Of a DNA stretch of 64,000 nt, positions 45,952 to 62,436 are shown piece by piece. The notes under the pieces were generated by a model, which saw only the letters and a list, made by a program, of their open reading frames with translations, searched no databases and was not told the origin of the DNA. Positions within the stretch are counted from its first letter, which is position 1; each line of letters opens with the position of its first letter. The DNA lies in contig MKWA01000025.1 in assembly GCA_001899285.1 (NCBI GenBank), forward strand, positions 92,038 to 156,037, in the 5' to 3' direction. The translations under genes and the position numbers were made by a program. This DNA is from Rhizobiales bacterium 64-17 (GTDB lineage: Bacteria > Pseudomonadota > Alphaproteobacteria > Rhizobiales > Xanthobacteraceae).

Positions 45952-46914
45952 TCAGAACGAGATCTTCGCCGCCTTGATGATCGGCGCCCATTTCTCGACT
46001 TCTGACGCCATGAACGCCTTGGCATCGGCCGGCGTGCCGCCGGACGCCTCGACGCCGAGATTGTCGAAGAAGGTCCGCGCCTTCTCTGACTTGATGTACT
46101 CGTTGGTCGCGGCATTGAGCTTGGCGATCACGTCCGCCGGCGTGCCGGTCGGCGCGAGGATCACATACCAGACCGCGGCCTCGAAGCCCCGCAGGCCGGA
46201 TTCCGATGCGGTCGGCACGTCCGGCAGCTTCGACCAGCGCTTGCCGCCGGCGATCGCCAGAGCCTTGATCTTGCCGTCCTTCACCGTCGGCACATAGGCC
46301 GCCATGGAATCCATGCCGACATCGATGTGACCGCCGATCAGATCGGTGATGATCGGCGGGCTGCCACGATATTGCGTGTCGACCAGCTTGATGCCGGCGC
46401 GCGCCTGTAACAGCTCGCCGGTGATGTGGCCGAGCGTGCCGTTGCCGGGGAACCCGGCGGTAAGTTTGTCCGGATTGGCCTTGGCGTAGTCGATCATCTC
46501 CTTGAGAGTGGAGAACGGCGCGTCTTTCTTCGCGACGACGATCACCGGCGCCTTGCCGATCAGCACGACCGGCGCAAAATCGCGATCCGGATCATACGAC
46601 ATATCCTTGTACATCAGCTTGTTGGTCGCGGCCGGACCCGTGGTCGCGAACAGGAAGGTGTAGCCATCGGGCGCGGCCTTCGCCGCCGCCGCACCGCCGA
46701 TATTGCCGCCGGCGCCACCGCGATTGTCGATGATGAACGGCTGGCCGAGTTTCGTTGCCAGATGCTCGATCAGGCCGCGGGCGATTACGTCCGAAGTCGT
46801 GCCGGCGGTGAACGGCACCACCAGCGTCACCGGCCGCGACGGCCAGGTCTGGGCGCTCGCCGCGGTGGCGGAGAGCAGCATGGCGGCAGCAGCCGCCAGA
46901 AAGCGCATGCGCAT
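45952..46914 (-). CDS. Tripartite tricarboxylate transporter substrate-binding protein (Bug family)
   Basis: 320-residue periplasmic solute receptor. Signal peptide FLAAAAAMLLSATAASAQ, then the family opening WPSRPVTLVVPFTAGTTSDV and VIDNRGGAGGN-like motif (FIIDNRGGAGGNIGGAAAAK), with GFPGNGTLGHITGELLQARA in the middle. Bug proteins bind carboxylates. No TctA/TctB membrane genes are adjacent, so it is an orphan receptor. It follows the cupin gene on the same strand. Confidence 0.93.
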   Translation of the reverse strand: MRMRFLAAAAAMLLSATAASAQTWPSRPVTLVVPFTAGTTSDVIARGLIEHLATKLGQPFIIDNRGGAGGNIGGAAAAKAAPDGYTFLFATTGPAATNKLMYKDMSYDPDRDFAPVVLIGKAPVIVVAKKDAPFSTLKEMIDYAKANPDKLTAGFPGNGTLGHITGELLQARAGIKLVDTQYRGSPPIITDLIGGHIDVGMDSMAAYVPTVKDGKIKALAIAGGKRWSKLPDVPTASESGLRGFEAAVWYVILAPTGTPADVIAKLNAATNEYIKSEKARTFFDNLGVEASGGTPADAKAFMASEVEKWAPIIKAAKISF

Positions 46915-46955
46915 GATGAATCCTCCCGGCTTTCGTTGTAGTCGTCTTCTCGGAA

Positions 46956-47291
46956 TCAGGGCGCGTATTCGGGGCGCTTCGGCGTGAACACGTCGATATT
47001 GATCACGGTCTCGTCGCCGATCACCTCGCCCCAGTGGGTGACGCCGCCGGGAATGACCACCAGGCCGCCCGGCCCGACCTCATGCGCCTCGTCTCCGATG
47101 TGAAACAGCATGCGCCCCTCGACGATATAGGCGATCTGCTCGTGCGGATGGCTGTGCGGCTTCGGCTCGTGCTTGGGATGCAGACGGTGCATGGCGATGG
47201 TCGCGCCACTGCCCGAGAACGCCTTCTGCTCGACGCCGCGGCGGATTTCCTTCCACGGAATCTGGCTCCAGTCGATCTTGTGAATATCCAT
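46956..47291 (-). CDS. Cupin domain protein
   Basis: 111-residue single cupin. The metal-binding first motif is HPKHEPKPHSHPHEQIAYIV, giving the H-x-H-x4-E pattern, and the second motif GGLVVIPGGVTHWGEV contains the last His. Small cupins in catabolic clusters are isomerases, dioxygenase-like enzymes or ligand sensors; the activity here is not readable. The ATG at 47291 has gaaggagag upstream and lies 25 bases after livH, so it belongs to the transporter operon. Confidence 0.88.
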   Translation of the reverse strand: MDIHKIDWSQIPWKEIRRGVEQKAFSGSGATIAMHRLHPKHEPKPHSHPHEQIAYIVEGRMLFHIGDEAHEVGPGGLVVIPGGVTHWGEVIGDETVINIDVFTPKRPEYAP

Positions 47292-47316
47292 GGCACTCTC
47301 CTTCTTCTTCAACTCG

Positions 47317-48189
47317 TTATTTAGCGGGACCGAGCAGCCCGGTCGGGCGCACGAACAGGAATAGCAGCAGGATCGACAGGGCGGCGACATTCTTGAACGC
47401 CGAGCCGAGGAATACGATGGCCAGCGCCTGCGCCACGCCGAGCAGGATGCCGCCAGTGAACGCACCGAGCGGCCGGCCGAAGCCGCCGACGATGGCGGCG
47501 ATGAAACCGGAAATCGCGAACGGCACGCCGACATTGAACGCGGTGTATTGCGTTGGCGTGATCAGGATACCGGCGAACGCGCCGAGCGCCGCACTGAGCG
47601 CAAACGCCAGCGCCAGCATCCGCGACACCGGGATGCCCTGCAGCGCCGCCGCGTCGCGATTGATCGAACAGGCGCGCATCGCCTTGCCGGTCTTGGTCGA
47701 GGAGAAGAACAGCGCCAGCAGCACGATCACCAGCAGCGAACAGGCAACGATCCAGAGGAACTGGAAATTGACGGCAAGGCCGAGGATGCGCAGCGGCGGC
47801 CGGTCGGTGAACACCGGCAGCGTGCGCGGCTGATCGCCTGCCGCGAGCAGCGCGAGCCGCTCGATGACGATCTGCGCCGCGAGCGTCGCCAGGATCATCA
47901 CGAACATGGTCGAGCCGCGATTCCACAACGGCCGCACCACCAGACGCTCCAGCACCACGCCGGCGAATGCCACCAGCACGATCGCCAGCGCCGCGGCAAG
48001 CGGCAGCGGCAGGCCGTAGCGCGCGAACGCGGTGTAGGTGACCATGCCACCCATCATCACGAACGCGCCCTGCGCGAAATTAACGATGCCGCTGGCGTTG
48101 TAGATGACGCAGAAGCCGATGCCGATCAACCCGTAGATACAGCCGACGCCGATGCCGCTGAGGATCGATTGCGCGACGAGGTCAAGCAT
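47317..48189 (-). CDS. Branched-chain amino acid-type ABC transporter permease (LivH-like)
   Basis: 290-residue inner-membrane permease with about eight helices. The opening GIGVGCIYGLIGIGFCVIYN and the EAA-like loop CSINRDAAALQGIPVSRMLA are typical of LivH. Start ATG at 48189 overlaps the livG stop by 8 bases. Last membrane component in the order K-F-M-G-H; substrate in such catabolic clusters is usually an aromatic acid or amide rather than an amino acid. Confidence 0.93.
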   Translation of the reverse strand: MLDLVAQSILSGIGVGCIYGLIGIGFCVIYNASGIVNFAQGAFVMMGGMVTYTAFARYGLPLPLAAALAIVLVAFAGVVLERLVVRPLWNRGSTMFVMILATLAAQIVIERLALLAAGDQPRTLPVFTDRPPLRILGLAVNFQFLWIVACSLLVIVLLALFFSSTKTGKAMRACSINRDAAALQGIPVSRMLALAFALSAALGAFAGILITPTQYTAFNVGVPFAISGFIAAIVGGFGRPLGAFTGGILLGVAQALAIVFLGSAFKNVAALSILLLFLFVRPTGLLGPAK

Positions 48190-48958
48190 GGGCGGCCTCG
48201 CTCTGCGTGCCAAGATAGGCGGCGATCACGTCCTTGTTGGCGCGCACCTCGTCCGGCGTGCCGCGTGCGATCAGCCGGCCGAAGTCGAGCACGGCGATCT
48301 GGTCGGTCACGCTCATGACGAGACTCATATCGTGCTCGATCAGCAGGATCGCCGTGCCGGCGGCAGCGATGCCGCGCAGCAGCGCCGCCAGCGCCTCGGT
48401 CTCCTGCTTGTTGAGACCTGCGGCCGGCTCGTCGAGCAACAGCAGCTTCGGCTTTGCCGCGAGCGCACGGGTGATTTCGAGGAGCCGTTTCTTGCCGTAA
48501 GGCAACACCGCCGCCATGGTGCCGGCCTGATCGGCAAGCCCGGTCTGGCGCAGCAGATCGCGGGCGCGCTCTTCGACCATCTGCTCTTCGTGACGGCTGG
48601 CGAGACCCGGCAGCAGCGCGGACAGCAATCCTCCCTGCGTCTGCATATGGAAACCGACCTTGACATTCTCCAGCACGGTCAGGTCGTCGAACAGTTGCAC
48701 GAGCTGGAACGTGCGCACGAGGCCGAGCCGCGCGATCGCCTCCGGCGGGCGGCCGGTGATGTCCTGACCGTCAAAGATGACTTTGCCGGCGCTCGGCGCA
48801 AGGAAGCCGGAAATCACATTGAACAGCGTGGTCTTGCCGGCGCCGTTCGGGCCGATCACGGCGGAAATGCCCTGCCCCGGAATCTCCAGCGACACGTCGT
48901 CGGTGGCGACGAGGCCGCCGAACCGCCGCGAGACATGATCGAGACGCAACAGGCTCAT
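48182..48958 (-). CDS. Branched-chain amino acid-type ABC transporter ATP-binding protein (LivG-like)
   Basis: 258-residue ATPase. Walker A GPNGAGKTTLFN near 38, the Q-loop region, ABC signature here in variant form (LPYGKKRLLEITRAL), Walker B LLLLDEPAAGLN and switch LLIEHDM. The LPYG sequence in place of LSGGQ is characteristic of LivG. Overlaps livM by 4 bases (ATGA) and livH by 8. Confidence 0.94.
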   Translation of the reverse strand: MSLLRLDHVSRRFGGLVATDDVSLEIPGQGISAVIGPNGAGKTTLFNVISGFLAPSAGKVIFDGQDITGRPPEAIARLGLVRTFQLVQLFDDLTVLENVKVGFHMQTQGGLLSALLPGLASRHEEQMVEERARDLLRQTGLADQAGTMAAVLPYGKKRLLEITRALAAKPKLLLLDEPAAGLNKQETEALAALLRGIAAAGTAILLIEHDMSLVMSVTDQIAVLDFGRLIARGTPDEVRANKDVIAAYLGTQSEAAHA

Positions 48959-49974
48959 GCCGCGCCTCCCTGCCGTGCGGATGTTTGCTGCACGTCCGTT
49001 TTCTGCGCAGCCTTGCGACGCCGCCACAGGTCCGGCAGCGAGACCAGCCCGCGCGGCGTGTAGATCAGGATCAGCACCAGCGCGGCGCCGTAAGCGAGGT
49101 CCTGATATTCCTTGAAGCCACGGAACGTCTCCGGCAGCAGCGCGACAATGACCGCGCCGAACACCGGCCCGACAATGGTGCCGATGCCGCCGACATACAG
49201 CATGGTGAAGGCGAGCACGACCATGTGCAGCCCGAACACCTCCGGACTGACGAAGCCGACCGCATGCACGAACAGCGAGCCGGCCACCGCGGCATAGCCG
49301 GCCGAGATCAGAAATGCGAGCAGCTTGGTGCGCGCGACATCGATGCCGAGGGCGCGCGCCGCGTCCTCGCTGCCGGCGACGGCGACAAACGAGCGGCCGA
49401 GCCGCGAGCGGCGAATGCCGCGCACCATGAGCAGCGACAGCAATGCGACCACGATCAGGAAAATCAGGATGCCGCGGTCGGAGGTGATGGTCCAGCGACC
49501 GACGCCGAGCGGCGCGATGCCGGAGATGCCCATATAGCCCTGCGTCACGGAATCCCATTGCACCGCGACTTCATAGGCGATCAGCCCGATCGCCAGCGTC
49601 GCCATCGCGAGATAGTGGCCGCGCAACCGCAGCACCGGATAGCCGACGATCAGCGCGCAAGCGAGCGCGCCGCCGATGCCGAGCACCGCCGCCGGCACCG
49701 GATCCCAGCCATAGGTCGCGGTCAGCACCGCCGAGGTGTAGCCGCTGATCGCGGCGAATGCGTTGTGGCCGAACGAGACCTGTCCGGTGAAGCCCATGAA
49801 CAGATTGAGGCCGGCGACGAACACAACATAGATACAGGCGAACTGCAGCACGGCCATCAGATAGCCGCCGTTGACGAATACGTAGGCGGCGAGCGCCGCG
49901 ACCGCGAGCCACAGCACCAGCAGCAGCGGATTGCTCCGCGCTTCAGCCCAGATAGAAGTGAGCGAGTTCATCAT
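48955..49974 (-). CDS. Branched-chain amino acid-type ABC transporter permease (LivM-like)
   Basis: 339-residue permease with about nine or ten helices. Family signatures FTGQVSFGHNAFAAISGYTS near 65 and AGSEDAARALGIDVARTKLL near 200. A polar C-terminal tail follows the last helix. Overlaps livF by 32 bases at its start and livG by 4 at its end. Confidence 0.94.
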   Translation of the reverse strand: MMNSLTSIWAEARSNPLLLVLWLAVAALAAYVFVNGGYLMAVLQFACIYVVFVAGLNLFMGFTGQVSFGHNAFAAISGYTSAVLTATYGWDPVPAAVLGIGGALACALIVGYPVLRLRGHYLAMATLAIGLIAYEVAVQWDSVTQGYMGISGIAPLGVGRWTITSDRGILIFLIVVALLSLLMVRGIRRSRLGRSFVAVAGSEDAARALGIDVARTKLLAFLISAGYAAVAGSLFVHAVGFVSPEVFGLHMVVLAFTMLYVGGIGTIVGPVFGAVIVALLPETFRGFKEYQDLAYGAALVLILIYTPRGLVSLPDLWRRRKAAQKTDVQQTSARQGGAA

Positions 49975-50668
49975 GCGACTTCACCTGGCGCGGATCGATC
50001 TCCGCGGCGATCGATCCGACCGACATTATGTAAGCGCGGCGCGCCAGCGTCAGCACCAGCGGCGCTTTCTGCTCGACCAGAATGATCGGCAGGCCGGCGC
50101 GGTTAAGCTCACCGAGCGTCTGTAAAATCTCCTCGATCACGCGCGGCGCGAGACCGAGCGATGGCTCGTCGAGCAGCAGCAGTTTCGGGTCCGACATCAG
50201 CGCGCGGCCGACCGCGAGCATCTGCTGCTCGCCGCCGGAGAGCGAGCCCGCCGTCTGCGCCAGCCGCTCCTTGAGACGGGGAAACAGCGTCATCACCCGG
50301 TCGTGTCGGCGCGCGAATTCCTGTTTGTCGTTGAGCAGATACGCGCCCAGTTCAAGATTCTCGGCGACCGTCATAGGTGCGAAGATGCCGCGCCCTTCCG
50401 GCACCAGCACGAGACCCATCGCCGCCGCCTTGGCCGGGTTGCGGCGTGGCACGGCATGGCCGTGAAACGCCACCGATCCTTGCGTCGGCACCAGCCCCAT
50501 CAGCGCGCGCATCAGGGTCGACTTGCCCGCGCCGTTGGGGCCGAGCACGGCGACCAGTTCGCCCGCCTCGACGTGCAAATCCACCGGATGAAGGGCCTCG
50601 ACGTGCCCGTAGCGCGCCGAGAGCCCTTCGACCGAGAGGATCCGCGATGGTTCGACGGCGGCGGTCAC
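49943..50668 (-). CDS. Branched-chain amino acid-type ABC transporter ATP-binding protein (LivF-like)
   Basis: 241-residue ATPase. Walker A GPNGAGKSTLMRALMG near 43, signature GSLSGGEQQMLAVGRALM near 143, Walker B LLLLDEPSLGLAP, switch VEQKAP. The start is GTG at 50668, inside the stop of the binding-protein gene (GTGA overlap). The last 32 bases overlap livM. Confidence 0.94.
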   Translation of the reverse strand: MTAAVEPSRILSVEGLSARYGHVEALHPVDLHVEAGELVAVLGPNGAGKSTLMRALMGLVPTQGSVAFHGHAVPRRNPAKAAAMGLVLVPEGRGIFAPMTVAENLELGAYLLNDKQEFARRHDRVMTLFPRLKERLAQTAGSLSGGEQQMLAVGRALMSDPKLLLLDEPSLGLAPRVIEEILQTLGELNRAGLPIILVEQKAPLVLTLARRAYIMSVGSIAAEIDPRQVKSHDELAHFYLG

Positions 50669-51804
50669 TTCACCACTTGAACCTTGCCGTTGATGATCGT
50701 CGCGAGCAGCAGCGGATTTTCCGTGATGCCCTGATGGTTGTTCGGCGCGAAGTGGTAGATGCCGGTGGTGCCCTGGAACCCGTCCATGGTTTCCAGCGCG
50801 TCGCGCAGCTTGGTGCCGTCAGTCGACTTGGCCTTCGCCACCGCTGCCGCGACCAGCGTCATCGCATCCCAGCCACGGCCGGCCCAGTTCGGATCGCGAT
50901 CCTTGTACTTGGCGCGCCACGGCTCGAGGAACGTGCCGATCTCCTTCTTCAAGGCGCTGTCCGGCAGCGCGTCATAGACCTGCGCCGGAGATGCGACGAA
51001 GAAGAACTTGTCGCCGAGCACTTCAGCCACCGGCCGGAACACGGCGATGTCCTCGAGGCTCGTCAGCATGATCATGTCGAGGCCGAGCTGCTTGATGTTC
51101 TTGGCCGCCGTCAGCGTCGTCCCGCCGAGGCCGATCTTGAGGATCGCGCGCGCGCCAGCCGCATACATCTTCTGGATCTGCACCGAGAGGTCGGCATCGT
51201 CGGTCTTGTACTGCTCGACGCCGACGATCTCGAGGCCATAGTCCTTGGCTTCCTTCTCCGCCGCGGCCTTCTGCGCGTTGGCGTAAGGCGACGGGTCATG
51301 CAGCACGCCGATCTTCTTGATCTGCGTTTTCTTCTGGATGTATTCGAGCCGGGTCTCGACCTCGAAGCGCGGCGGCGGAATGGTGGTGAACGCCCATTTC
51401 ACGTGATCGGGCTGCTGCGGCAGGATCGAGCACAGCACCATCGGCGTTTCCGCCCGCACGATCAGCGGCGCGGCGGCGAAATTGCCGGCCGACACGCAGC
51501 CGCTGACGAATACGTTGACTTTGTCGGACGAGATCATCTTGCGATAGACCGTCACCGCTTCCTGCGGCTCGGACTTGTTGTCCTCGACAATCAGCTCAAT
51601 CTTCTTGCCGGCGATGCCGCCCTTGGCGTTGAGCACGCCGATCGCCACCTCGACGCCGTCACGCCAGGCGCGATCGACGGTCGCGGCATAGCCGGTCAAG
51701 CCGGCGGCCATGCCGACCTTGTAGGTCTCCTGCGCCGCGGCCGGCGCGACGAGCGCGGCCGACAGCGCCAGCGCCGCGGTTGTGGTGAGCAGTTTAAACG
51801 ACAT
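50665..51804 (-). CDS. ABC transporter substrate-binding protein (LivK-like)
   Basis: 379-residue periplasmic receptor of the type I binding-protein fold. Signal peptide LLTTTAALALSAALVAPAAA, then YKVGMAAGLTGYAATVDRAW, AGKKIELIVEDNKSEP and GRGWDAMTLVAAAVAKA. First gene of the transporter set; a ggagg-type site (ggggagg) precedes the ATG. 78 bases separate it from iclR upstream. The ligand is unknown. Confidence 0.93.
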   Translation of the reverse strand: MSFKLLTTTAALALSAALVAPAAAQETYKVGMAAGLTGYAATVDRAWRDGVEVAIGVLNAKGGIAGKKIELIVEDNKSEPQEAVTVYRKMISSDKVNVFVSGCVSAGNFAAAPLIVRAETPMVLCSILPQQPDHVKWAFTTIPPPRFEVETRLEYIQKKTQIKKIGVLHDPSPYANAQKAAAEKEAKDYGLEIVGVEQYKTDDADLSVQIQKMYAAGARAILKIGLGGTTLTAAKNIKQLGLDMIMLTSLEDIAVFRPVAEVLGDKFFFVASPAQVYDALPDSALKKEIGTFLEPWRAKYKDRDPNWAGRGWDAMTLVAAAVAKAKSTDGTKLRDALETMDGFQGTTGIYHFAPNNHQGITENPLLLATIINGKVQVVK

Positions 51805-51882
51805 GGTACCTCCCCTTTGATTGGTTGTTCTCAGTGTGAGCGACCGGACGGCATCTGCAAAGCCCCCGGCCGACCGTCGAAA

Positions 51883-52797
51883 TCAGTCGAAAATGAACTC
51901 CCGCATGTTCGGAATGCCGAGCCCCTCGTAGCCGGTGGAGTTCAACTTCAGTGACATCGCCTTGGTACAGGCGCGCAAAAGCTGCAACTGCTCCGGCTCG
52001 ACCGGATCGTGCACATACTGGGTGGTGCCGACCACCGCGATGGCGCCGACCAGTTCGTTGTCGAAATTGAGGATCGGCGCGGCGACGGCGGAGATGCCGA
52101 GCAGCGTCTCGTCCATCGACACATCGTAAAGCTGCTCGCGGATGCGCGCGAGGCGCTGCCGCAGCGCCGGTACGTCGGTAATGGTGTGCGGCGTGAACGA
52201 CTGCAGCTTGCGCGCAAGGATGCGCTGCTGTGTCGCGGACGGCGTGAAGGCGAGTGTCACCCGCCCCTGCGCCGAGGCATGCGCCGGCAAGCGATAGCCG
52301 AGCCGCACGGAGATCGTCACCAGATTGGGACTGTCGACCACCGCATTGACAATGGCGTCGCCGCTCGCCGGCATGCTGAGGACGATCGTCTGATGGGTGA
52401 GATCGCGCAGCCGCACCATGTACGGTTCGGCGAGCCGGCGCAGATCGAACTGGTCGATCGCCGCCTGGCCGATATGCACCAGCTTCGGCCCGAGCCGATA
52501 GCATTCAGTCTGCGCGTCCTGATCGACGAAACCGAGATGCTTCAGGGTCGAAAGATGACGGTGCATCTTCGCCTTCGCTTCGCCGAGCTGGTTGGCGAGC
52601 GCGGTGAGCCGCATCGGCTGACCGGCGGCGGCCAGCGCCTCGATGATCTGCCCGGTCATCACCACCGACTGGATCATGCCCGAACCACCGGCACGATCTT
52701 CGTCGCCCGCGTCGATATCGTTCGCGTCCGCCGGTTTGGACGACGGCTTGTGCGCGTCCTTCTGCGTTTCCTTGCGCGGCTTGTCCGTCTGTTTCAT
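51883..52797 (-). CDS. IclR family transcriptional regulator
   Basis: 304-residue regulator. A polar N-terminal tail of about 35 residues is followed by a winged helix (LTALANQLGEAKAKMHRHLS, LKHLGFVDQDAQTECYRLG) and the IclR ligand-binding domain (HQTIVLSMPASGDAIVNAVV, LGYRLPAHASAQGRVTLAF, ISAVAAPILNFDNELVGAIA). IclR proteins commonly control aromatic-catabolism operons. The ATG at 52797 shares a base with the flavin reductase stop (TGATG), so it is cotranslated with the enzymes it presumably regulates. Confidence 0.92.
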   Translation of the reverse strand: MKQTDKPRKETQKDAHKPSSKPADANDIDAGDEDRAGGSGMIQSVVMTGQIIEALAAAGQPMRLTALANQLGEAKAKMHRHLSTLKHLGFVDQDAQTECYRLGPKLVHIGQAAIDQFDLRRLAEPYMVRLRDLTHQTIVLSMPASGDAIVNAVVDSPNLVTISVRLGYRLPAHASAQGRVTLAFTPSATQQRILARKLQSFTPHTITDVPALRQRLARIREQLYDVSMDETLLGISAVAAPILNFDNELVGAIAVVGTTQYVHDPVEPEQLQLLRACTKAMSLKLNSTGYEGLGIPNMREFIFD

Positions 52798-53393
52798 CAG
52801 CCGGACGTCCATGGATCGAAACCGTTGAGCGGCGGCAGCACCTTCGGCTCATTGCCGGCGTAATCCGGAAACTCGGCATTGGGGGCCAGCGCCCTGTAGC
52901 TGCCGCGGAAGAACATCAGCGGCTCGCCGGTCGCCAGTCGCTCGAAGCGCCGCACCAGCCCGATCAGAATGACATGATCGCCGGCCTCGTGATGCGCGTG
53001 ACGATCGCATTCAAAGCTCGCCAGCGCGCCATTGATGATCGGGCAGCCGTTCCCGGCGATGCTGTAATCGGTGCTGTCCCATTTCTCGCCGGACGACACC
53101 GCGAACCGGTTCGACACCGCACCCTGATCGCTCGCCAGCACGCTGACGGCAAAGCGCGGCGCGTGGAGAAAGCCCGCAAGACTGTGCGCCCGCTTCGCGA
53201 CGCTGAACAAGACGAGCGGCGGATCGAGCGATACCGAGCCGAACGAATTAGCGGTAATGCCGATACGCTCGCCATTGTCGCGCACAGTGGAGATCACCGT
53301 GACGCCGGTAGCGAAGGCCGCCAGCGCATCGCGGAAACTCCGGCGGTCGAACACCACCGGCTCCTGCATGATGTCCTGTCCGGTCGCGCTCAT
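52797..53393 (-). CDS. Flavin reductase family protein (HpaC-like)
   Basis: 198-residue FMN-binding split-barrel flavin reductase, giving FADH2 or FMNH2 to a partner monooxygenase. Motifs: FRDALAAFATGVTVISTV, RIGITANSFGSVSLDPPLVL, and the late HHEAGDHVILIGLVRRFERL with FFRGSYRAL. The evident partner is the HpaB-family gene two positions upstream. ATG overlaps the stop of the dehydrogenase gene (ATGA) and its own stop overlaps iclR. Confidence 0.93.
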   Translation of the reverse strand: MSATGQDIMQEPVVFDRRSFRDALAAFATGVTVISTVRDNGERIGITANSFGSVSLDPPLVLFSVAKRAHSLAGFLHAPRFAVSVLASDQGAVSNRFAVSSGEKWDSTDYSIAGNGCPIINGALASFECDRHAHHEAGDHVILIGLVRRFERLATGEPLMFFRGSYRALAPNAEFPDYAGNEPKVLPPLNGFDPWTSG

Positions 53394-54448: not shown

Positions 54449-54481
54449 ACAGACACCTCGCTCGACACAACCATGCGGCGG

Positions 54482-55993
54482 CTATTCCGCTGCCGACAGC
54501 ACCGGCCGAAACGGCAACGGCTTTTCCGGATCGTCGCGACGTTCTTCAAGGCCATCGAGCAGTTCCGCGATCCGGTCCACATAAGGGTTCTTGTCATAGA
54601 TTTCATAAAGCGTACCCGCGAGGCGCACAGGATCGCCGGAATAGTAGCGTTCGTAAAGCTGCTGCCGTCCGGAGAACGACGACACGGCGGCGTCGAAGGC
54701 AAGACGGAACAGCTTGATGCGGTAGCGCGAGTCTGCATTCGCCGCCTGGAAGTAGGTTTCGACGTCCTTGCCGACCGGGCCGGTCAATTCCGCATAGGAC
54801 GGCACGGCAACGAGGCCGCCGGCGCCGAGGATCTGGATGATCTCGCACATGCGGATGAACATCTTCGGGAACATCATGCGCACGGTCCACAGCGGCAGCG
54901 CCGCCGGCGTCATGAATCCTTGGGCGTTCGGCGCGGCGTCCACCTCGCTGGCGCGCAGGCAGGACCGCACGAATTCGGTGTACTGGATCATCTCCGCCAG
55001 CATGCCCTGCACATGCAGATGCGCGTCGATCTTGGTCGAGCGCGCCATCGAAAACGCCAGCGCCATCATGAACTCGGCCTTCGCGAGGTTCTTGGTGCTG
55101 AACTGGTGCATGATCTGCGGCATCGCGCCGGTGCGGTTGTAGAGGCCGTTGCACATCTCCGCATCGCGATAGATGAACACCTTTTCCCACGGGATCAGCA
55201 CGTTGTCGAAGATCACCATGGCGTCGGTTTCATCGAGACGCGACGACAGCGGATAGTCCATCGGCGAGCCGGGATTGCCGTGGATGACCGACGGCCGGCA
55301 GATGAAGCGCAGGCCCTGCGCATTCACCGGCACCGCGAAGCCGAACGCATAGGGCTTCGCCTCCTCGCTGTTGGCGAGATAGGTCGACGGCATCACCAGC
55401 AGGTCTTGGGAATAGGCGCACAGCGTCGACACCATGCGCGCGCCATGCACGACGATGCCGGCGTCGGTCTCCTTCACCACCTTCGCCGCCAGATCCTTGT
55501 CCTGCTTCTCGACCGGCTTGGAGCGGTCGACCTGCGGATTGATCAGCGTGTGGGTCATCGCGATATCGTTCTCGCGACAATAGAGATAGTAGTTCCAGAT
55601 ATTGTCGGCGTATTTCTGCTCTTTCTGGCCGAACGCTTCCTTGGCGCAGGCGAAGCCGGTGAGCGTGATGTTCATGAAGTCCGGGCTGCGGCCGAACATG
55701 CCGCAGGTCGAATCCATCCAGGTCTTCACCATGTCGCGGCGGCGCTCGAGGTCGTTCATGCTCTTCGGCTGGATGAACGACAGGCCGACACGCTCGCCGC
55801 TGGTCGGCGACTGATAGGTCATGCGCTCGATCAAATCGTGATGGTGCTGCATGTCGTAGAGTTCGGCCATGGTGTAGGCCGCGCCGGCGAAGCGGCGGTC
55901 GGTAGTGACGTCGGTCACCAGTTCGCCGTCGATCCACATCTGGCGGCCGTCCCGCAGGGACTCGAGATATTGCTTGCCGGTCCGGATACCCAT
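54482..55993 (-). CDS. HpaB-family flavin-dependent aromatic monooxygenase
   Basis: 503-residue oxygenase component of a two-component flavin monooxygenase, family of 4-hydroxyphenylacetate 3-hydroxylase, which also includes chlorophenol and pyrrole-2-carboxylate monooxygenases. Motifs: RTGKQYLESLRDGRQMWIDG at the start, GFACAKEAFGQKEQKYADNI near 115, TDAGIVVHGARMVSTLCAY near 175, and FDNVLIPWEKVFIYRDAEMC near 270. It should hydroxylate a phenolic (or hydroxypyridine-like) ring next to the hydroxyl. The ATG at 55993 has caggagc upstream. Confidence 0.92.
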   Translation of the reverse strand: MGIRTGKQYLESLRDGRQMWIDGELVTDVTTDRRFAGAAYTMAELYDMQHHHDLIERMTYQSPTSGERVGLSFIQPKSMNDLERRRDMVKTWMDSTCGMFGRSPDFMNITLTGFACAKEAFGQKEQKYADNIWNYYLYCRENDIAMTHTLINPQVDRSKPVEKQDKDLAAKVVKETDAGIVVHGARMVSTLCAYSQDLLVMPSTYLANSEEAKPYAFGFAVPVNAQGLRFICRPSVIHGNPGSPMDYPLSSRLDETDAMVIFDNVLIPWEKVFIYRDAEMCNGLYNRTGAMPQIMHQFSTKNLAKAEFMMALAFSMARSTKIDAHLHVQGMLAEMIQYTEFVRSCLRASEVDAAPNAQGFMTPAALPLWTVRMMFPKMFIRMCEIIQILGAGGLVAVPSYAELTGPVGKDVETYFQAANADSRYRIKLFRLAFDAAVSSFSGRQQLYERYYSGDPVRLAGTLYEIYDKNPYVDRIAELLDGLEERRDDPEKPLPFRPVLSAAE

Positions 55994-56025
55994 CGCTCGC
56001 TCCTGGCTCGCGCGCAGATTAATGT

Positions 56026-56862
56026 TCAGCCGTCGACGCCCTCGAATACGACCAAGCCGTATCCAGTGAGCATCGGCGCGTAATAATGGCGGTGGACCCG
56101 CCGCACCTTCTCGCCGAGCGCCGAGCGCATGGCGAGCCACATGATCATCTCGACTGATTCCGCGCCGCCACGCTCCATGTAATCGTGATGGCGCAAGGCG
56201 ACCAGCGCCTGCGGATCGGATTCGAGCTTGTCGAGGAATTCGTTGTCCCACGCCGGATTCATGAAACCGAAGCGGTCGCCATGCAGTTGATGCGACATGC
56301 CGCCGGTCGCGACCACCAGCACGCGCAGGTCTTGCGGATAGGTCTCGACCGCGAGGCGGATCGCCTGACCGAGATGGAAAAACCGCTTCGGCGTCGGCAG
56401 CGGATGCTGGATCACGTTGGCGGCGAGCGGCACGAGCGGCGCCGGCCAGCGATTGTCGGTGAGCAGCGGCAGGATCGAGAGAATGCCGTGATCGACCGTC
56501 ATCTCCTGACAGATGGTCGGATCGAATTCGTCTTCGACGAGGCTTTGCGCCAGATGCCAGGAGAACTCGGCATTGCCCGGCAAGTCCGGGAAATCACGCT
56601 TGCCCCAGCCCTCGTCCGCCTGCGGATGCCGGTCCGCGACACCCAGCGCGAAGGTCGGATAGGCGTCGAAGAAGAAGCGGTTCATGTGGTCGTTGTAGAC
56701 CGCGACGATCAGGTCGGGCTTGAGCTTCTCCAGCCACTCCTTCGCCGGTTCGAAACCGTCATAGAGTGGCTTCCACATCGGGTCTTTCTGCAGACCGCGA
56801 TCGAATGAATGGGCGATGGAGGGGGCGTGCGAACAGCCGATACCACCGACGATACGTGCCAT
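56026..56862 (-). CDS. Class III extradiol dioxygenase, LigB-type catalytic subunit
   Basis: 278-residue catalytic subunit related to protocatechuate 4,5-dioxygenase beta chain. Iron ligands are expected in IGCSHAPSIAHSF (His near 12) and VYNDHMNRFFFDAYP (His near 59) with a later Glu; TVDHGILSILPLLTD carries another conserved His. It splits a ring carbon-carbon bond next to a diol using Fe(II) and O2. Pairs with the LigA-type gene 14 bases upstream. Substrate unassigned (protocatechuate, gallate or a dihydroxypyridine are candidates). Confidence 0.92.
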   Translation of the reverse strand: MARIVGGIGCSHAPSIAHSFDRGLQKDPMWKPLYDGFEPAKEWLEKLKPDLIVAVYNDHMNRFFFDAYPTFALGVADRHPQADEGWGKRDFPDLPGNAEFSWHLAQSLVEDEFDPTICQEMTVDHGILSILPLLTDNRWPAPLVPLAANVIQHPLPTPKRFFHLGQAIRLAVETYPQDLRVLVVATGGMSHQLHGDRFGFMNPAWDNEFLDKLESDPQALVALRHHDYMERGGAESVEMIMWLAMRSALGEKVRRVHRHYYAPMLTGYGLVVFEGVDG

Positions 56863-56876
56863 ATCCGTGATCCTCG

Positions 56877-57257
56877 TCAGTGATCTCTCGGCACGGCGAC
56901 GCCCTGCTGGCCCGGCCGCGTCTTCATGAACTCCTCGAAGCTTTGGCCGCGCATCTGCGCGCCCATCTTCAGGAGGTTTTCGCCGACCGCGCCGCCGACC
57001 TTGATCAGCACGTAGATATTGCCGCCGGCGGCGACGAGTCCCTTCCAGTCGCGCTTGCGCACCAGATCAATCTCGGCGTCGGTCATGCCGAAGCGGCGCA
57101 TATAGCCGGCCTCGTCCGCCTTGAAGGCATCGCGGTTGGCCGGATCGGTCAGCGACATGGAAAACTTGTTGATGCGATAGCCCTGCCGCGAGCGCGCCCC
57201 GGTGAAGACCGAGGTGCCCGCAATGGGGGTATCGCGATACGTGGCGCCTGCCATCAT
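56877..57257 (-). CDS. LigA-type small subunit of extradiol dioxygenase
   Basis: 126-residue helical small subunit of the protocatechuate 4,5-dioxygenase type. The family core is RQGYRINKFSMSLTDPANRD, then GYMRRFGMTDAEIDLVRKRD and WKGLVAAGGNIYVLIKVGGA. The subunit closes over the active site of the LigB chain. First gene of the leftward operon; the divergent hyuA begins 243 bases away. Confidence 0.92.
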   Translation of the reverse strand: MMAGATYRDTPIAGTSVFTGARSRQGYRINKFSMSLTDPANRDAFKADEAGYMRRFGMTDAEIDLVRKRDWKGLVAAGGNIYVLIKVGGAVGENLLKMGAQMRGQSFEEFMKTRPGQQGVAVPRDH

Positions 57258-57402
57258 GGCCGTCCTTGTGCTTCCATCCCGCAGGTTTCCCTGCCGACCC
57301 TGTGAAAGGGTTCTGTCAGCATGTCATTTTTACGAGACACGCTTCTTTGTTACGGAACAGGCTAACAAACGAAATTTGGAAACGTCAATGACGGAATCGA
57401 AA

Positions 57403-57431
57403 TTGACAGGAAAAATCGCTGTTTTTATAGT
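57403..57431 (+). promoter_or_regulatory. Consensus sigma-70 promoter for hyuA
   Basis: TTGACA at 57403-57408, a 17-base spacer, TATAGT at 57426-57431, 70 bases before the hyuA ATG. An 11-bp near-perfect palindrome CGTCAATGACG sits at 57383-57393, ten bases before the -35 box, a possible site for the cluster's IclR protein. Confidence 0.7.
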
Positions 57432-57500
57432 CTCAGCCAGAAACCTTGTTCCACACTGAGAAACAACAACCGCCTTTCGCGGAACGCCTGAGGGAGCCGA

Positions 57501-59567
57501 ATGCCGAGTTACGCGCTGGCCGTCGATATCGGCGGCACATTCACCGACGTTGTTCTGCGCAGCGACAGCGGCCAGACCTGGGTCGATAAAACGCTGACGA
57601 CCCCCGAACAGCTCGACGTCGGCTTCTTCCGTGCCGTCGATTCCGCGCTGGCCAAGGCCGGTATCAAACCGGCCGCCGTCACCGACGTGGTGGTGCACGC
57701 CACCACCGTCGTCACCAACGCGGTGATCGAACGCAAGGGTCCACGCACCGCGCTGCTGGTCACCGAAGGTTTTCGTGACATCCTGACGATCCGCGACGAA
57801 CATCGCTACGAGATGTTCGATCCGCAGATCGAATTCCCCGAGCCGCTGGTTGGCTCCGACATGACCTTCGGCGTGAAGGAGCGCGTGCTCGCCACCGGCG
57901 CCGTGCTCACGCCGCTCGACACCAAAGCGGCCGAAGCGGTTGCCGATGAACTGAAAGCCAAGGGCGTCGTCTCAGTCGCGATCTCGTTCCTTAATGCCTA
58001 TCTCAATCCCGCCAACGAGCGGGCGATGCGCGACATCCTCAAGAAGCGCATGCCGAACCTCTATGTCTCGATCTCGTCGGACGTGGCACCGCAGATCCGC
58101 GAATATCCGCGCACCTCGACGGTGGTGATGAACGCCTATACGGCGCCGATCACCGGCCCCTATCTCGATGCACTCGTCGCCGGCCTGAAAAAGCGCGGCT
58201 TCGGCAACGAGCCGCTGATCATGTTGAGCAACGGCGGCGTGATCGGCGTCGAGATCGCGAAGATCTTCCCGGTGCGCATGGTCGAGTCCGGTCCGGCCGC
58301 CGGCGCACTCGCCGCAGCCTACTTCGCCGAAGTGCTCGGCCTCGACCGGCTCCTCTCGTTCGACATGGGCGGCACCACCGCGAAAGCCTGCATCATCGAG
58401 GATCGTCACCCGCTGGTGAGCGGTAATTTCGAGGTGGACCGCATCTACCGCTTCAAGTCGGGCAGCGGCCTGCCGATCCTCATTCCCTCGGTGGACATGA
58501 TCGAGATCGGCGCCGGCGGCGGCAGCATCGCCTCGGTCAGCAATCTCGGATTGCTCAAGGTCGGCCCGCAGAGCGCCGGCTCGACGCCCGGCCCGGTCGC
58601 TTACGGCCGCGGCGGCACCAATCCGACCGTCACCGACGCCGATCTCGTGCTCGGCTATCTCGACGCCGACAACTTCCTCGGCGGCGATATGAAGCTCGAC
58701 CTCAAGGGCGCCGAGAAACAAATGGCCGAACTCGGCAAGAAGCTCGGCACCTCGACGCGCGACGTCGCTGCCGGCATCTACCGCGTGGTCGGCGAATCCA
58801 TGACCGCCGCGGCGCGCGCGCATGCAGTGGATCGTGGCATCGATTATCGCGGTGTGCCGCTGTTCGCGTTCGGCGGCGCCGGCCCGGTGCACGCCTGCTA
58901 CGTCGCCGATCTGCTCGAAAGCCCGATGGTGATCTACCCGCCGCTGGCGAGCGTGCTGTCCGCCTTCGGCACGCTGGTGACGCCGCCGCGGCTCGACCTG
59001 AGCCAGGGCGCACTGGCGCGGCTGTCCTCGGTCGATTGGCACGGCGTCGACGGCATCATTGACAAGCTGGTAGAGGACGCCCGCAAGGGCCTCGCCAGCG
59101 CCGGCTGCAAGCCGGACGAGATCACCTTCAAGTTCGGCGCCGACATGCGCTATTTCGGCCAGCAGAACGAGGTCACCGCCTGGTTCGACGCCGATCCGCG
59201 CAAGAAACACGACGCCGCCGCGGTGCGTGAGGTGTTCGAGACGGAATACGAAAAGCTCTACAGCCTGCGGCTGCCGGAAGTAGACATCGAGATCGTCTCC
59301 TGGCGGCTGGTCGCGACCGGCCCGCTGGCGTCGCGCGACAGCAAGATTGACCTGAAAGGCCAACCGGCGAAACCGAGCCGCACTCGCAGCGCCCGCTTCA
59401 ACGGCGACGACGTGCAGGCACCGGTCTATGCGCGGCGCGAGCTTGCGCAGGGCCAGAGCATCGACGGTCCCGCGATCATCGAGGAACGCGAGACCACCAT
59501 CATCATTCTTCCCGGCTGGCGCGCCACGGTCGACAAGACCGGGTGCATCATGGCGACAAAGGACTGA
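57501..59567 (+). CDS. Hydantoinase/oxoprolinase subunit A
   Basis: 688-residue ASKHA-fold ATPase subunit of the hydantoinase A/5-oxoprolinase family. Motifs: AVDIGGTFTDVVLRSDSGQT at the start, VVHATTVVTNAVIERKG near 70, LSFDMGGTTAKACIIED near 285 and IEIGAGGGSIASVSNLG near 335. Family members, with a B subunit, hydrolyse cyclic amides (hydantoins, 5-oxoproline) or carboxylate ketones such as acetone or acetophenone, always using ATP. Which applies here is unknown. Followed after 5 bases by the B subunit. Confidence 0.93.
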   Translation: MPSYALAVDIGGTFTDVVLRSDSGQTWVDKTLTTPEQLDVGFFRAVDSALAKAGIKPAAVTDVVVHATTVVTNAVIERKGPRTALLVTEGFRDILTIRDEHRYEMFDPQIEFPEPLVGSDMTFGVKERVLATGAVLTPLDTKAAEAVADELKAKGVVSVAISFLNAYLNPANERAMRDILKKRMPNLYVSISSDVAPQIREYPRTSTVVMNAYTAPITGPYLDALVAGLKKRGFGNEPLIMLSNGGVIGVEIAKIFPVRMVESGPAAGALAAAYFAEVLGLDRLLSFDMGGTTAKACIIEDRHPLVSGNFEVDRIYRFKSGSGLPILIPSVDMIEIGAGGGSIASVSNLGLLKVGPQSAGSTPGPVAYGRGGTNPTVTDADLVLGYLDADNFLGGDMKLDLKGAEKQMAELGKKLGTSTRDVAAGIYRVVGESMTAAARAHAVDRGIDYRGVPLFAFGGAGPVHACYVADLLESPMVIYPPLASVLSAFGTLVTPPRLDLSQGALARLSSVDWHGVDGIIDKLVEDARKGLASAGCKPDEITFKFGADMRYFGQQNEVTAWFDADPRKKHDAAAVREVFETEYEKLYSLRLPEVDIEIVSWRLVATGPLASRDSKIDLKGQPAKPSRTRSARFNGDDVQAPVYARRELAQGQSIDGPAIIEERETTIIILPGWRATVDKTGCIMATKD

Positions 59568-59572
59568 ACCCC

Positions 59573-61120
59573 ATGGACGGCATCGAACTCGAGATCGTCT
59601 GGAGCAACATCATCAGCATCGTCAGCGAACAGGCGAAGGCGTTGCAACGCATCGCCTTCTCGCCGATCGTGCGCGAAGCGGGCGACCTCGCCAACGCGCT
59701 ATTCGACAAGCGCGGCCGCATGGTGGCGCAGGCGGTGACCGGCACGCCGGGCCACATCAATTCGCTCGCCGCCGCCGGCAAACATTTCGTCGAGGCGTTC
59801 CCGACGCAGACGCTGCGCGAAGGCGACGTCCTCATCACCAACGACCCATGGCTATCGGCCGGGCACTTCTTCGACATCACGGTGATGCTGCCCGCGTTCC
59901 ACAAGGGCAAGCTGATCGGCTTCTTCGGCTCGACCATCCACCACACCGATATCGGCGGTTACGGCGTGGGCGCGGGCGCGCGCGACGTGCACGAGGAAGG
60001 TCTGTGGATTCCGATGCTCAAGCTCTACGATGCGGGTGAGCCGAACAAGACGCTGTTCGAGATGATCCGCCGCAACGTCCGCACGCCGGATCATGTGTTC
60101 GGCGACCTCGCGGCGCAGGTGTCGAGCGCCAGGCTCGCCGGCAAGCGCCTCTCCGCGCTGCTCGACCGGCAGGGTTACGAAGACATCGACGAACTGTCGG
60201 AAGAGATCATCTCGCGCTCGGAGAAGGCGACGCGGGAATCGATCCGCAAGCTCAAGGCCGGCACCTATCACGGCGAAAGCTCGTTCGACGTGCCGGGCGG
60301 CGACGTGATCACGCTCAAGACCGCCGTGACGATCGATCCGAAGCTCGGCGAGATCATCATCGACTTCGCCGGCAGTTCCGGGCCGAGCCCCTACGGCATC
60401 AACGTGGTGATGAATTACACCCACGCTTACTCCACGTTCGCGATCCGCTCCTGCCTCGATCCCGAACTGCCGAACAATTTCGGCAGCCTCGCGCCAATCA
60501 AGGTGGTCGCGCCGGAAGGCTGCATCGTCAACTGCAAGTATCCGGTGCCGGTGAATGCCCGCCACGTCGTCGGCATGTATGTGCCGATGCCGATCCTCAA
60601 GGCGCTCTATCATGTGATGCCGGAGCGCGTTCTGGCCGAGGGCTCGGGCGCGGTCTGGACCATCCAGATCCAGGGTCGCGACGACCGCGGCGACCCCTTC
60701 ACCTCGTCGATGTTCAACTATTCCGGCGGCATGGGCGCACGGCAGACCAAACCCGGCCCGTCGGCCACCTGCTATCCGACCGGCGTCGCCGCGGTGCCGA
60801 TCGAGGTGCTGGAAGCCTCGATGCCGATCCTGTTCACCCGCAAGGAATTGCGCGAAGGCTCCGGCGGCACCGGCGCCTCGCCAGGCGGAGACGGGCAGAT
60901 CATCCAGTGGACGATGCGGACCAACACGGACTGGCTGCTCAACACCGTGGCGAGCCGCACCGACCTCGCCCCCGAGGGCCTGGCCGGCGGCAGACCGGGC
61001 GCGGCCGGACGCTTTCTTGTCAACGGCAAGCCGGTGAGCGAAGCTCGCAAAATGGTGATGAAGCCCGATGACCAGGTCACCCTGGAAACGCCGGGCGGCG
61101 GGGGATACGGCGCAGCCTGA
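59573..61120 (+). CDS. Hydantoinase/oxoprolinase subunit B
   Basis: 515-residue partner of the upstream A subunit. Opening IELEIVWSNIISIVSEQAKA, then the family blocks LITNDPWLSAGHFFDITVML near 95, FDVPGGDVITLKTAVTIDP, and the Gly-rich C-terminal block REGSGGTGASPGGDGQI and TLETPGGGGYGAA. Start at 59573 (MDGIEL) chosen over a longer frame that overlaps hyuA. Forms a heteromeric ATP-dependent enzyme with the A subunit. Confidence 0.93.
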   Translation: MDGIELEIVWSNIISIVSEQAKALQRIAFSPIVREAGDLANALFDKRGRMVAQAVTGTPGHINSLAAAGKHFVEAFPTQTLREGDVLITNDPWLSAGHFFDITVMLPAFHKGKLIGFFGSTIHHTDIGGYGVGAGARDVHEEGLWIPMLKLYDAGEPNKTLFEMIRRNVRTPDHVFGDLAAQVSSARLAGKRLSALLDRQGYEDIDELSEEIISRSEKATRESIRKLKAGTYHGESSFDVPGGDVITLKTAVTIDPKLGEIIIDFAGSSGPSPYGINVVMNYTHAYSTFAIRSCLDPELPNNFGSLAPIKVVAPEGCIVNCKYPVPVNARHVVGMYVPMPILKALYHVMPERVLAEGSGAVWTIQIQGRDDRGDPFTSSMFNYSGGMGARQTKPGPSATCYPTGVAAVPIEVLEASMPILFTRKELREGSGGTGASPGGDGQIIQWTMRTNTDWLLNTVASRTDLAPEGLAGGRPGAAGRFLVNGKPVSEARKMVMKPDDQVTLETPGGGGYGAA

Positions 61121-61224
61121 CACATCTACCGCACCGCTCTCTCGTGACGGCATCTGATGCGTTCAAGACGGAATCAGCTCAAGACTGAATCAACAATGAC
61201 AAAACAGACCGGGAGGAAACGACA

Positions 61225-62436
61225 ATGCGGAGTGGAAGTATCGCGGCAGGCTTGACCGGCCTGCTGCTCGGGGTGTCGCTTGCCAGCCTCGCGCAAGCGC
61301 AGGTCTCCGACGACAAAGTGAAGATCGGCGTGTTGACCGACATGTCCGGCCCGGCCTCGACGCCGACCGGACAAGGCTCGGTGACCGCCGCACAGATGGC
61401 CGTCGACGACTTCGGCGGCAAGGTCAACGGCAAGCCGATCGAACTGATCTTCGCCGACCATCAGCTCAAGCCCGACGTCGGCGCCGGCATCGCGCGGCGC
61501 TGGTACGACGTCGATCAGGTGGACCTGATCGTCGACGTGCCGGTCTCGTCGGTTGGCCTCGCCGTGCAGAACGTCGCCAAGGAAAAGCAAAAGCTCTTCA
61601 TCACCCACTCCACCGGCTCGACCGACTTCCACGGGAAGTTCTGCACGCCCTATGCGATCCAGTGGGTGTTCGACACCCGTGCGCTCGCGGTCGGCACCGC
61701 CAAGGAAATCACCAAGCGCGGCGGCAAAAGCTGGTTCTTCATCACCGACAACTACGCGTTCGGCCATTCGCTGGAAAAGGACGCGAGCGAGGTGATCAAC
61801 GCCAACGGCGGCAAGGTGGTCGGCTCGGTGAAGCCGCCATTCGCGGCGCCGGAACTGTCCTCGTTCATGCTGCAGGCGCAGGCATCGAAGGCGCAGGTGA
61901 TCGGCATCGCCGGCGGTCCGCCCAACAACACCAACGAGATCAAGCTCGCCTCCGAGTTCAACATCATCAAGGGCGGCCAGCAGCTCGCCGGCCTGCTGGT
62001 GCTGATCACCGATATTCACGCGCTTGGTCTGAAGACCGCACAGGGCCTCGTCCTCACCACATCGTTCTACTGGGATATGGATGACAAGACCCGTGCCTGG
62101 TCGAAGCGCTACTTCGAGAAGATGAACCGGATGCCGACCATGTGGCAGGCCGGCGTCTACTCATCGGTAACGCACTACCTGCAAGCGGTGAAGGACTCCG
62201 GCACCGACGCTCCGCTGAAGGTGGCCGCAAAAATGCGCGAGAAGCCGATCGAGGATTTCTTCTCCCGCAACGGCAAGCTGCGCGAAGACGGTCTGATGGT
62301 GCACGATCTCGTGCTGGTGCAGGTGAAGACGCCGGAGGAATCCAAGGCGCCGTGGGACTACTACAAGATCCTCGCCACCATCAAAGGCGAGGACGCGTTC
62401 GGCCCGCCGGACCCGGCCTGCACGATCGGCAAGTAA
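61225..62436 (+). CDS. Second LivK-like ABC transporter substrate-binding protein
   Basis: 403-residue periplasmic receptor. Signal peptide AAGLTGLLLGVSLASLAQAQ, then VKIGVLTDMSGPASTPTGQG, FADHQLKPDVGAGIARRWYD and SWFFITDNYAFGHSLEKDAS. Different from the LivK at 50665. No permease follows, so it probably uses the Liv permease of the same cluster. 104 bases after hyuB, with a gggaggaaa site; the operon ends at the terminator below. Confidence 0.92.
   Translation: MRSGSIAAGLTGLLLGVSLASLAQAQVSDDKVKIGVLTDMSGPASTPTGQGSVTAAQMAVDDFGGKVNGKPIELIFADHQLKPDVGAGIARRWYDVDQVDLIVDVPVSSVGLAVQNVAKEKQKLFITHSTGSTDFHGKFCTPYAIQWVFDTRALAVGTAKEITKRGGKSWFFITDNYAFGHSLEKDASEVINANGGKVVGSVKPPFAAPELSSFMLQAQASKAQVIGIAGGPPNNTNEIKLASEFNIIKGGQQLAGLLVLITDIHALGLKTAQGLVLTTSFYWDMDDKTRAWSKRYFEKMNRMPTMWQAGVYSSVTHYLQAVKDSGTDAPLKVAAKMREKPIEDFFSRNGKLREDGLMVHDLVLVQVKTPEESKAPWDYYKILATIKGEDAFGPPDPACTIGK

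Follow-up and report, generated by a model that had tools for sequence, protein, structure and literature searches.

Why should genes for aromatic ring cleavage stand back to back with those of an ATP-dependent hydantoinase/oxoprolinase-type enzyme? The question is raised by a locus in a 64,000-nucleotide stretch of Rhizobiales bacterium 64-17 (contig MKWA01000025.1, positions 92,038–156,037), here called the window and lying on contig C25 of the source genome, G000. Gene families were assigned by Pfam scans of translated open reading frames (ORFs). A leftward set of genes, ligA-ligB-hpaB-dihydroorotate dehydrogenase (DHODH)-like-flavin reductase-iclR-Liv transporter-cupin-Bug, diverges from a rightward set, hyuA-hyuB-livJ2, with 243 bp between hyuA and ligA. 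These families, their order and their start/stop overlaps had been named in an original prediction made from the letters of the window, and the ORFs and Pfam scans bore all of them out.

The cluster is genuine, and other genomes carry its core as a unit. With just short of even confidence, we read it as a hybrid catabolic cluster, in which a phenolic ring would be opened by HpaB and LigAB, and a ring amide or imide would be the target of the DHODH-like protein and HyuAB. This reading is supported by the divergent core at four further loci, by relatives that carry the hyuAB module without the ring-cleavage block, by the ATP motifs of HyuA and by a short element shared between the two arms. If it is correct, aromatic ring cleavage is joined here to ATP-dependent lactam hydrolysis, and a role is implied for a protein similar to DHODH and dihydropyrimidine dehydrogenase (DPD) that lost the family's catalytic Cys.

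Recurrence of the core in other lineages

We surveyed 391 genomes of the family and 385 of the class; genes in relatives were called by script (longest ORF or codon score) and are uncurated. LigB with at least 90% identity is found in four family genomes, namely the source, G605 (98%), G364 (91%) and G333 (90%), the next best match being 55% identical, and in all four hyuA lies beside ligB. The divergent arrangement of hyuAB and ligAB-hpaB is present at four loci besides the window: L081 in Pseudolabrys sp. ACE_PRO36 (G605:C24), L087 in Rhizobiales 62-47 (G333:C23), L085 in a Hyphomicrobiales metagenome-assembled genome (MAG; G364:C63) and L082 in Centralia_MAG_132. With G605 counted as the source's genus, the core reaches another genus of the same family, as well as an unplaced alphaproteobacterial MAG. 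As it recurs in other lineages, the cluster is more than a chance assembly.

At L081, everything from Bug through livJ2 is kept at 97–100% identity. The core at L087 retains LigB (90%), HpaB (87%), HyuB, LigA and livJ2 (82% each), HyuA (80%), IclR (75%), the DHODH-like protein (73%), the cupin (67%) and the flavin reductase (61%), and the contig of L085 stops within hpaB. At L082, hyuB (78%) and hyuA (67%) diverge from ligA (59%), ligB (70%) and hpaB (77%), accompanied by cupin (58%), DHODH-like (69%), flavin reductase (46%) and iclR (60%) genes, with a class II aldolase gene (PF00596) beyond hyuB. The gene for the second Liv-type receptor, livJ2 (61225–62436, + strand; Peripla_BP_6, PF13458), accompanies the ring-cleavage version of the locus in G605, G333 and G364, and has no match above 90 bits in the loci that carry the hyuAB module without ligAB-hpaB (L126–L132).

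HpaB relatives at E 1e-100 occur in 8 of the 385 class genomes; the HpaB scan of contigs was made with two peptides, so that its seven loci are a lower bound. In eight of the nine loci read with hpaB at least 68% identical, ligAB directly precedes hpaB, and hyuAB stands beside them in five of the nine. The exception is L083 (hpaB 73%), whose contig begins 1 kb upstream. On a 9.3-kb contig of G876 (L079), genes for a DUF6282 protein and a flavin reductase diverge from ligA (58%), ligB (71%), hpaB (72%) and the DHODH-like gene (59%). L084 and L086 (G876:C129) carry only ligA (47%), ligB (49–50%) and hpaB (64–68%), the hpaB copy of L086/L097 being interrupted.

A hyuAB-Liv module without the ring-cleavage block

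Fifteen family genomes have a hyuA (16 loci) without a close ligB, and in the up to ~1.5 kb searched on each side of it no match above 50 bits to ligA, ligB or hpaB was found. Wide contexts were read for seven of these genomes (G486, G629, G581 (4.65 kb), G326, G331, G372 and G353); of the remaining eight, G565 has a contig of 3.1 kb and the other seven were searched in the short flanks. An IclR homologue (31–82% identical) adjoins hyuA at 13 of the 16 loci. In G486 and G629 (L126, L127), hyuAB diverges from iclR-livJ1-livFMGH-cupin, and G581 (L128) holds the start of the same array. G331, G372 and G353 (L130, L131, L132) contain hyuAB, livJ1FMGH and the cupin in other arrangements. The livH-livG-livM-livF gene order of the window is kept in all of these except L128, that is, in L126, L127 and L130–L132; a cupin gene is present in the same five loci and in L081, L082 and L087. 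No cupin match was found in L129, nor any Liv genes at the hyuAB copy on G326:C58. In G629 and G331 a DHODH-like protein (53% and 50%) is encoded as well, with a Bug gene adjoining it (66% and 62%), and the G331 module also includes a DUF6282 protein, a family on which a literature search gave nothing.

In G486, G629 and G581, hyuA and iclR are separated by ~270–325 bases. As the ligA-ligB-hpaB-DHODH-like-flavin reductase block of the window sits between hyuA and iclR, it fills the position of this gap. Judged by gene order, the window looks like a hyuAB-Liv module whose hyuA and iclR are separated by a ring-cleavage block; the block would have been gained in the window lineage, not lost elsewhere. 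The hyuAB-IclR-Liv-cupin module itself probably serves to take up a compound and, at the expense of ATP, to open the ring of a cyclic amide or imide. Relatives that have this module without the block provide a natural comparison for assigning gene roles.

Elsewhere in the source genome, L135 (G000:C24:105500–124500) holds a paralogous Liv cassette (47–58% identical to that of the window) with DUF6282, HpcH/HpaI-family and IclR-homologue (36%) genes, and appears from its gene content to be a sister module.

HyuAB and the ring-opening step

HyuA (57501–59567, +; Hydantoinase_A; PF01968/PF05378/PF19278) is the ATP-binding subunit and HyuB (59573–61120, +; Hydantoinase_B, PF02538, 483.4 bits) the metal-site subunit. 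HyuA carries DIGGTFTD at 9, DMGGT at 288 and PGP at 363, which are ATP motifs given for the A subunit of hydantoinases/oxoprolinases in PMC8453981. Candidate Asp-His-Asp-His stretches of HyuB at 36, 97 and 122 were picked by eye; their His-Asp-His spacing is as in CapB, and the first Asp is displaced by two residues. With CapAB, N-methylhydantoinase and 5-oxoprolinase, HyuAB shares the ATP motifs and a place in the two-subunit, ATP-dependent lactam-opening family. It differs from them in its adjoining ring-cleavage block and in scoring far below the CapA and CapB equivalog cut-offs (480.9 bits for HyuA and 178.7 bits for HyuB on the caprolactamase models, whose cut-offs are 1000). HyuA scores 356.5 bits to a 5-oxoprolinase, 337.5 bits to an N-methylhydantoinase and 307.6 bits to acetophenone carboxylase gamma (5l9w).

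This last relationship, together with 318.9 bits on the ApcC model (cut-off 1500), would fit a HyuAB that uses ATP to carboxylate an aromatic ketone at the entry to the route, as happens when acetophenone is degraded. We consider such a role improbable, as the 5-oxoprolinase, N-methylhydantoinase and caprolactamase scores of HyuA are all higher, and as the window encodes two subunits, whereas PMC5214803 describes an acetophenone carboxylase core of four kinds plus Apc-epsilon. The nitrogen-containing substrate of the original prediction stands in so far as the HyuAB family suggests a nitrogen-bearing compound; HyuAB is the only part of the cluster that points to nitrogen.

A short element common to both arms

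Upstream of hyuA lies a promoter-like site, TTGACA-17-TATAGT (57403–57431, +), followed ~16 bases after its second hexamer by a dyad, GTTCC-N7-GAAAC (57448–57464, +), which is a candidate hyuA operator that a regulator may bind. Ten hyuA upstream regions were taken and seven aligned, leaving out L082, G331 and G372; TTGACA is kept in all seven, and the last bases of the dyad are AAAC, preceded by G in six regions and by A in that of G486. A 16-base element overlaps the dyad (57452–57467, −), and a near-identical copy, one base shorter, precedes livJ1 in the iclR-livJ1 gap (51824–51838, +). The pattern of this shared element matches only these two sites in the window.

The ring-cleavage block

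HpaB (54482–55993, −; PF11794/PF03241), the oxygenase component of a flavin monooxygenase, scores 511.7 bits on TIGR02309 (4-hydroxyphenylacetate monooxygenase; cut-off 480.2) and shares 43% identity with Thermus HpaB. Besides the TIGR02309 score, it has in common with Thermus-type HpaB (PDB 2yyg/2yyj) the equivalents of Arg100, His142, Ser197 and Thr198 and a flavin reductase gene within its run (52797–53393, −; PF01613), whose product is its presumed partner. It differs in the low identity, in the LigAB neighbours and in one residue of the catalytic triad Arg100-Tyr104-His142 (PMC10537072): Arg102, Phe106 and His148 of the window's HpaB align there, so that Arg and His are kept and the catalytic Tyr is Phe. 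Relatives at least 68% identical also have Phe, except L082 (Tyr). As Phe occurs in rows 55% identical and in L095 (38%) as well, Phe106 is not peculiar to this clade.

LigB (56026–56862, −) is the catalytic subunit of a class III extradiol dioxygenase (PF02900, 216 bits, cut-off 26.3; NF009902, 410.6 bits, cut-off 299), with LigA (56877–57257, −; PF07746) as its small subunit. The active-site His residues of the family, DesB His124 and His192, have aligned equivalents in LigB, and the separate small subunit is as in SYK-6 LigAB. The differences from these two systems are several. The original prediction had proposed comparing LigB with protocatechuate and gallate dioxygenases, and in our tree the window's LigB forms a clade of its own, nested in neither the SYK-6 LigB nor the DesB clade. 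Matches shorter than 230 residues, duplicates and rows containing stops had been removed from the tree; its 34-row clade holding 1b4u (SYK-6 LigB; support 100/98) leaves out the window LigB clade, the 1b4u row being long. LigA scores 82.7 bits on TIGR02792, below its cut-off of 108.6, and the gallate dioxygenase model PRK13367 gives 352.2 bits (cut-off 412), ligA and ligB being separate genes and not one chain. DesB Glu377 and Tyr391 (PMC3962378, as are the other DesB residues) align with Ile85 and Gly99 of LigA; Tyr412 lies past the end of the printed alignment, where counting on leads to Val120.

HpaB relatives also occur near molybdenum hydroxylase subunits, in L083 (3792–8980; 73%, also with a GMC oxidoreductase) and L098 (3384–6350; 55–56%); no LigAB match was found at either locus. 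Molybdenum hydroxylases often act on N-heterocycles. In a 3,4-dihydroxypyridine-type route, the example given in the original prediction, HpaB would hydroxylate a hydroxypyridine, LigAB would cleave the pyridinediol and HyuAB would remove amide products. Besides these neighbours, the placing of PydA, the mimosine-pathway dioxygenase, in the LigB family (PMC7356986) agrees with such a route, but we think it very unlikely. No LigAB match accompanies either of the two HpaB relatives, and the Arthrobacter pathway for 4-hydroxypyridine, as given in PMC7356986, uses a Pfam01494 FAD enzyme as its hydroxylase, a ring-opening protein of the amidohydrolase family and, after it, a 30 kDa hydrolase.

The DHODH/DPD-like protein (53390–54448, −; DHO_dh) shares with the C-terminal domain of DPD and with dihydroorotate dehydrogenase B a barrel fold in its predicted model; in the alignment, DPD Asn668 corresponds to its Asn147, and the Lys of KLT to its Lys188. 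It differs at the catalytic Cys (DPD Cys671), which is replaced by Ala150 in all five orthologues aligned, and at DPD Asn736/Thr737, whose places in the alignment are taken by Gly215/Arg216. None of the identified cluster genes resembles PreT or PyrK. A search at E 1e-30 found the protein in 3 of 385 class genomes, the source included and one match being 28% identical; it did not return the family-level relatives of G629 and G331, which came to light through gene neighbourhoods.

One pathway or two neighbouring systems?

From the chemistry of their families, the enzymes might act as follows. HpaB, using reduced flavin from the reductase, would add a hydroxyl beside a phenolic OH, and LigAB would cleave the ortho-diol. 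The Cys-less DPD-like protein may oxidise or reduce an unsaturated ring or a product of the cleavage, and HyuAB would open a lactam or imide by ATP-dependent hydrolysis, either of the imported compound or of a product cyclised onto nitrogen. IclR may coordinate both arms. That a single compound is served by all enzymes is inferred, and so are its identity, the order of the steps and which way the insertion went. A more specific version, an undescribed oxygen-dependent route for a nitrogen-bearing phenolic whose extradiol product is recyclised onto nitrogen, reduced by the Cys-less protein and hydrolysed with ATP, seems unlikely. The families are known ones; our literature search did not find this combination of enzymes, and its chemistry is put forward from sequence.

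Several observations tell against the hybrid pathway. HyuA at E 1e-215 or better occurs in 19 of the 391 family genomes, with a close ligB in only four of the 19, and ligAB-hpaB stand without hyuAB in L079, L084 and L086. At L087, the flanking Liv genes on both sides are only 28–41% alike, a 25% livJ1-like receptor adjoins the cupin, and Bug was not found at the core; in the 19.9 kb of L082, livJ1, livJ2 (searched at E 1e-5) and Bug have no match. The IclR proteins of L130–L132 are only 33–39% alike. The rarity of the shared element is no independent test, because its pattern was built from those two sites, found by eye; beyond the alignment, the dyad pattern has a weaker form in L082 and no match in the hyuA upstream regions of G331 and G372. 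The model showing the barrel fold is weak, and DPD-type reduction is not established, because the DHODH-like protein lacks the proton-donor Cys. As to the original prediction, its own test makes the passing of the curated TIGR02309 cut-off by HpaB count against a novel hydroxylase, although residue 106 is altered; the identity of just 43% to Thermus HpaB and the place of LigB outside both reference clades support the prediction.

The co-conservation of hyuAB with ligAB-hpaB holds in one direction: all four genomes with a close ligB have hyuA adjacent, whereas 15 of those with hyuA lack a close ligB. A single dedicated pathway argued from two-way co-conservation was rejected, hyuA being commoner than close ligB (19 versus 4 of 391). 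The broader proposal of one pathway for an imported aromatic is supported in part: it keeps the divergent unit at L081, L082, L085 and L087 in its favour, and has the frequent occurrence of hyuAB without ligAB-hpaB against it.

The 15 of 19 hyuA genomes without a close ligB also speak for two neighbouring systems: a gallate/protocatechuate-like branch, in which HpaB makes a diol or triol, LigAB cleaves it and unlinked GalB/LigK-type enzymes finish, and an unrelated hyuAB-Liv uptake-hydrolysis module. An unlinked lower pathway is possible, because a LigK/GalC-type aldolase gene (352.1 bits, cut-off 304.5) adjoins a PIG-L-family gene on contig C15 of the source genome, and a PrpF-family protein is encoded on C7. 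GalB is a PIG-L-family member. The absence of ligC, ligI, ligJ and ligK from the window, which had been taken to argue against protocatechuate, is weak evidence and was rejected in view of the aldolase on C15 (LigC, LigI and LigJ were not searched for). The TIGR02309 score of HpaB likewise favours two systems. Nevertheless, we judge them somewhat unlikely: the block sits within the module, with hyuA on one side and iclR on the other, and adjoins hyuAB at four other loci, LigB falls outside the LigB and DesB clades, and DesB Glu377, Tyr391 and Tyr412 are unmatched in LigA.

Transport, regulation and neighbouring genes

The remaining leftward genes encode an IclR-family regulator (51883–52812, −; PF01614/PF09339), the Liv-type substrate-binding protein livJ1 (50665–51804, −; Peripla_BP_6, PF13458), the ATPases livF (49943–50668, −) and livG (48182–48958, −; both ABC_tran, PF00005), the branched-chain-type permeases livM (48955–49974, −) and livH (47317–48189, −; both BPD_transp_2, PF02653), a small cupin of 111 amino acids (46956–47291, −; Cupin_2, PF07883) and a Bug/TctC-type periplasmic receptor (45952–46914, −; PF03401, 231.3 bits). 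The best NCBIfam model for IclR is PcaR/PcaU/PobR (146.8 bits, below the cut-off of 284.75). By their coordinates, many of these genes overlap: livF/livJ1 and livG/livM by 4 bp, livH/livG by 8 bp, livM/livF by 32 bp and iclR/flavin reductase by 16 bp, and the start of the flavin reductase gene overlaps the DHODH-like stop by 4 bp.

Near the LigK-type aldolase and PIG-L genes on C15 (L104, G000:C15:243000–262000) are glyoxalase/dioxygenase-superfamily, TctC and DUF1932 genes. Directly after livJ2, a gene of the di-haem cytochrome c peroxidase/MauG family (PF03150; 62462–63664, +) is 86% identical in G605; the stretches read in G333 and G364 contain no match to it above 60 bits. Just past the window (L137, G000:C25:156038–166000) are genes for an AMP-binding ligase, a regulator with helix-turn-helix and shikimate-kinase domains, which we take to be BzdR-like, and the start of a FAD_binding_3 protein; these are possibly another aromatic cluster.

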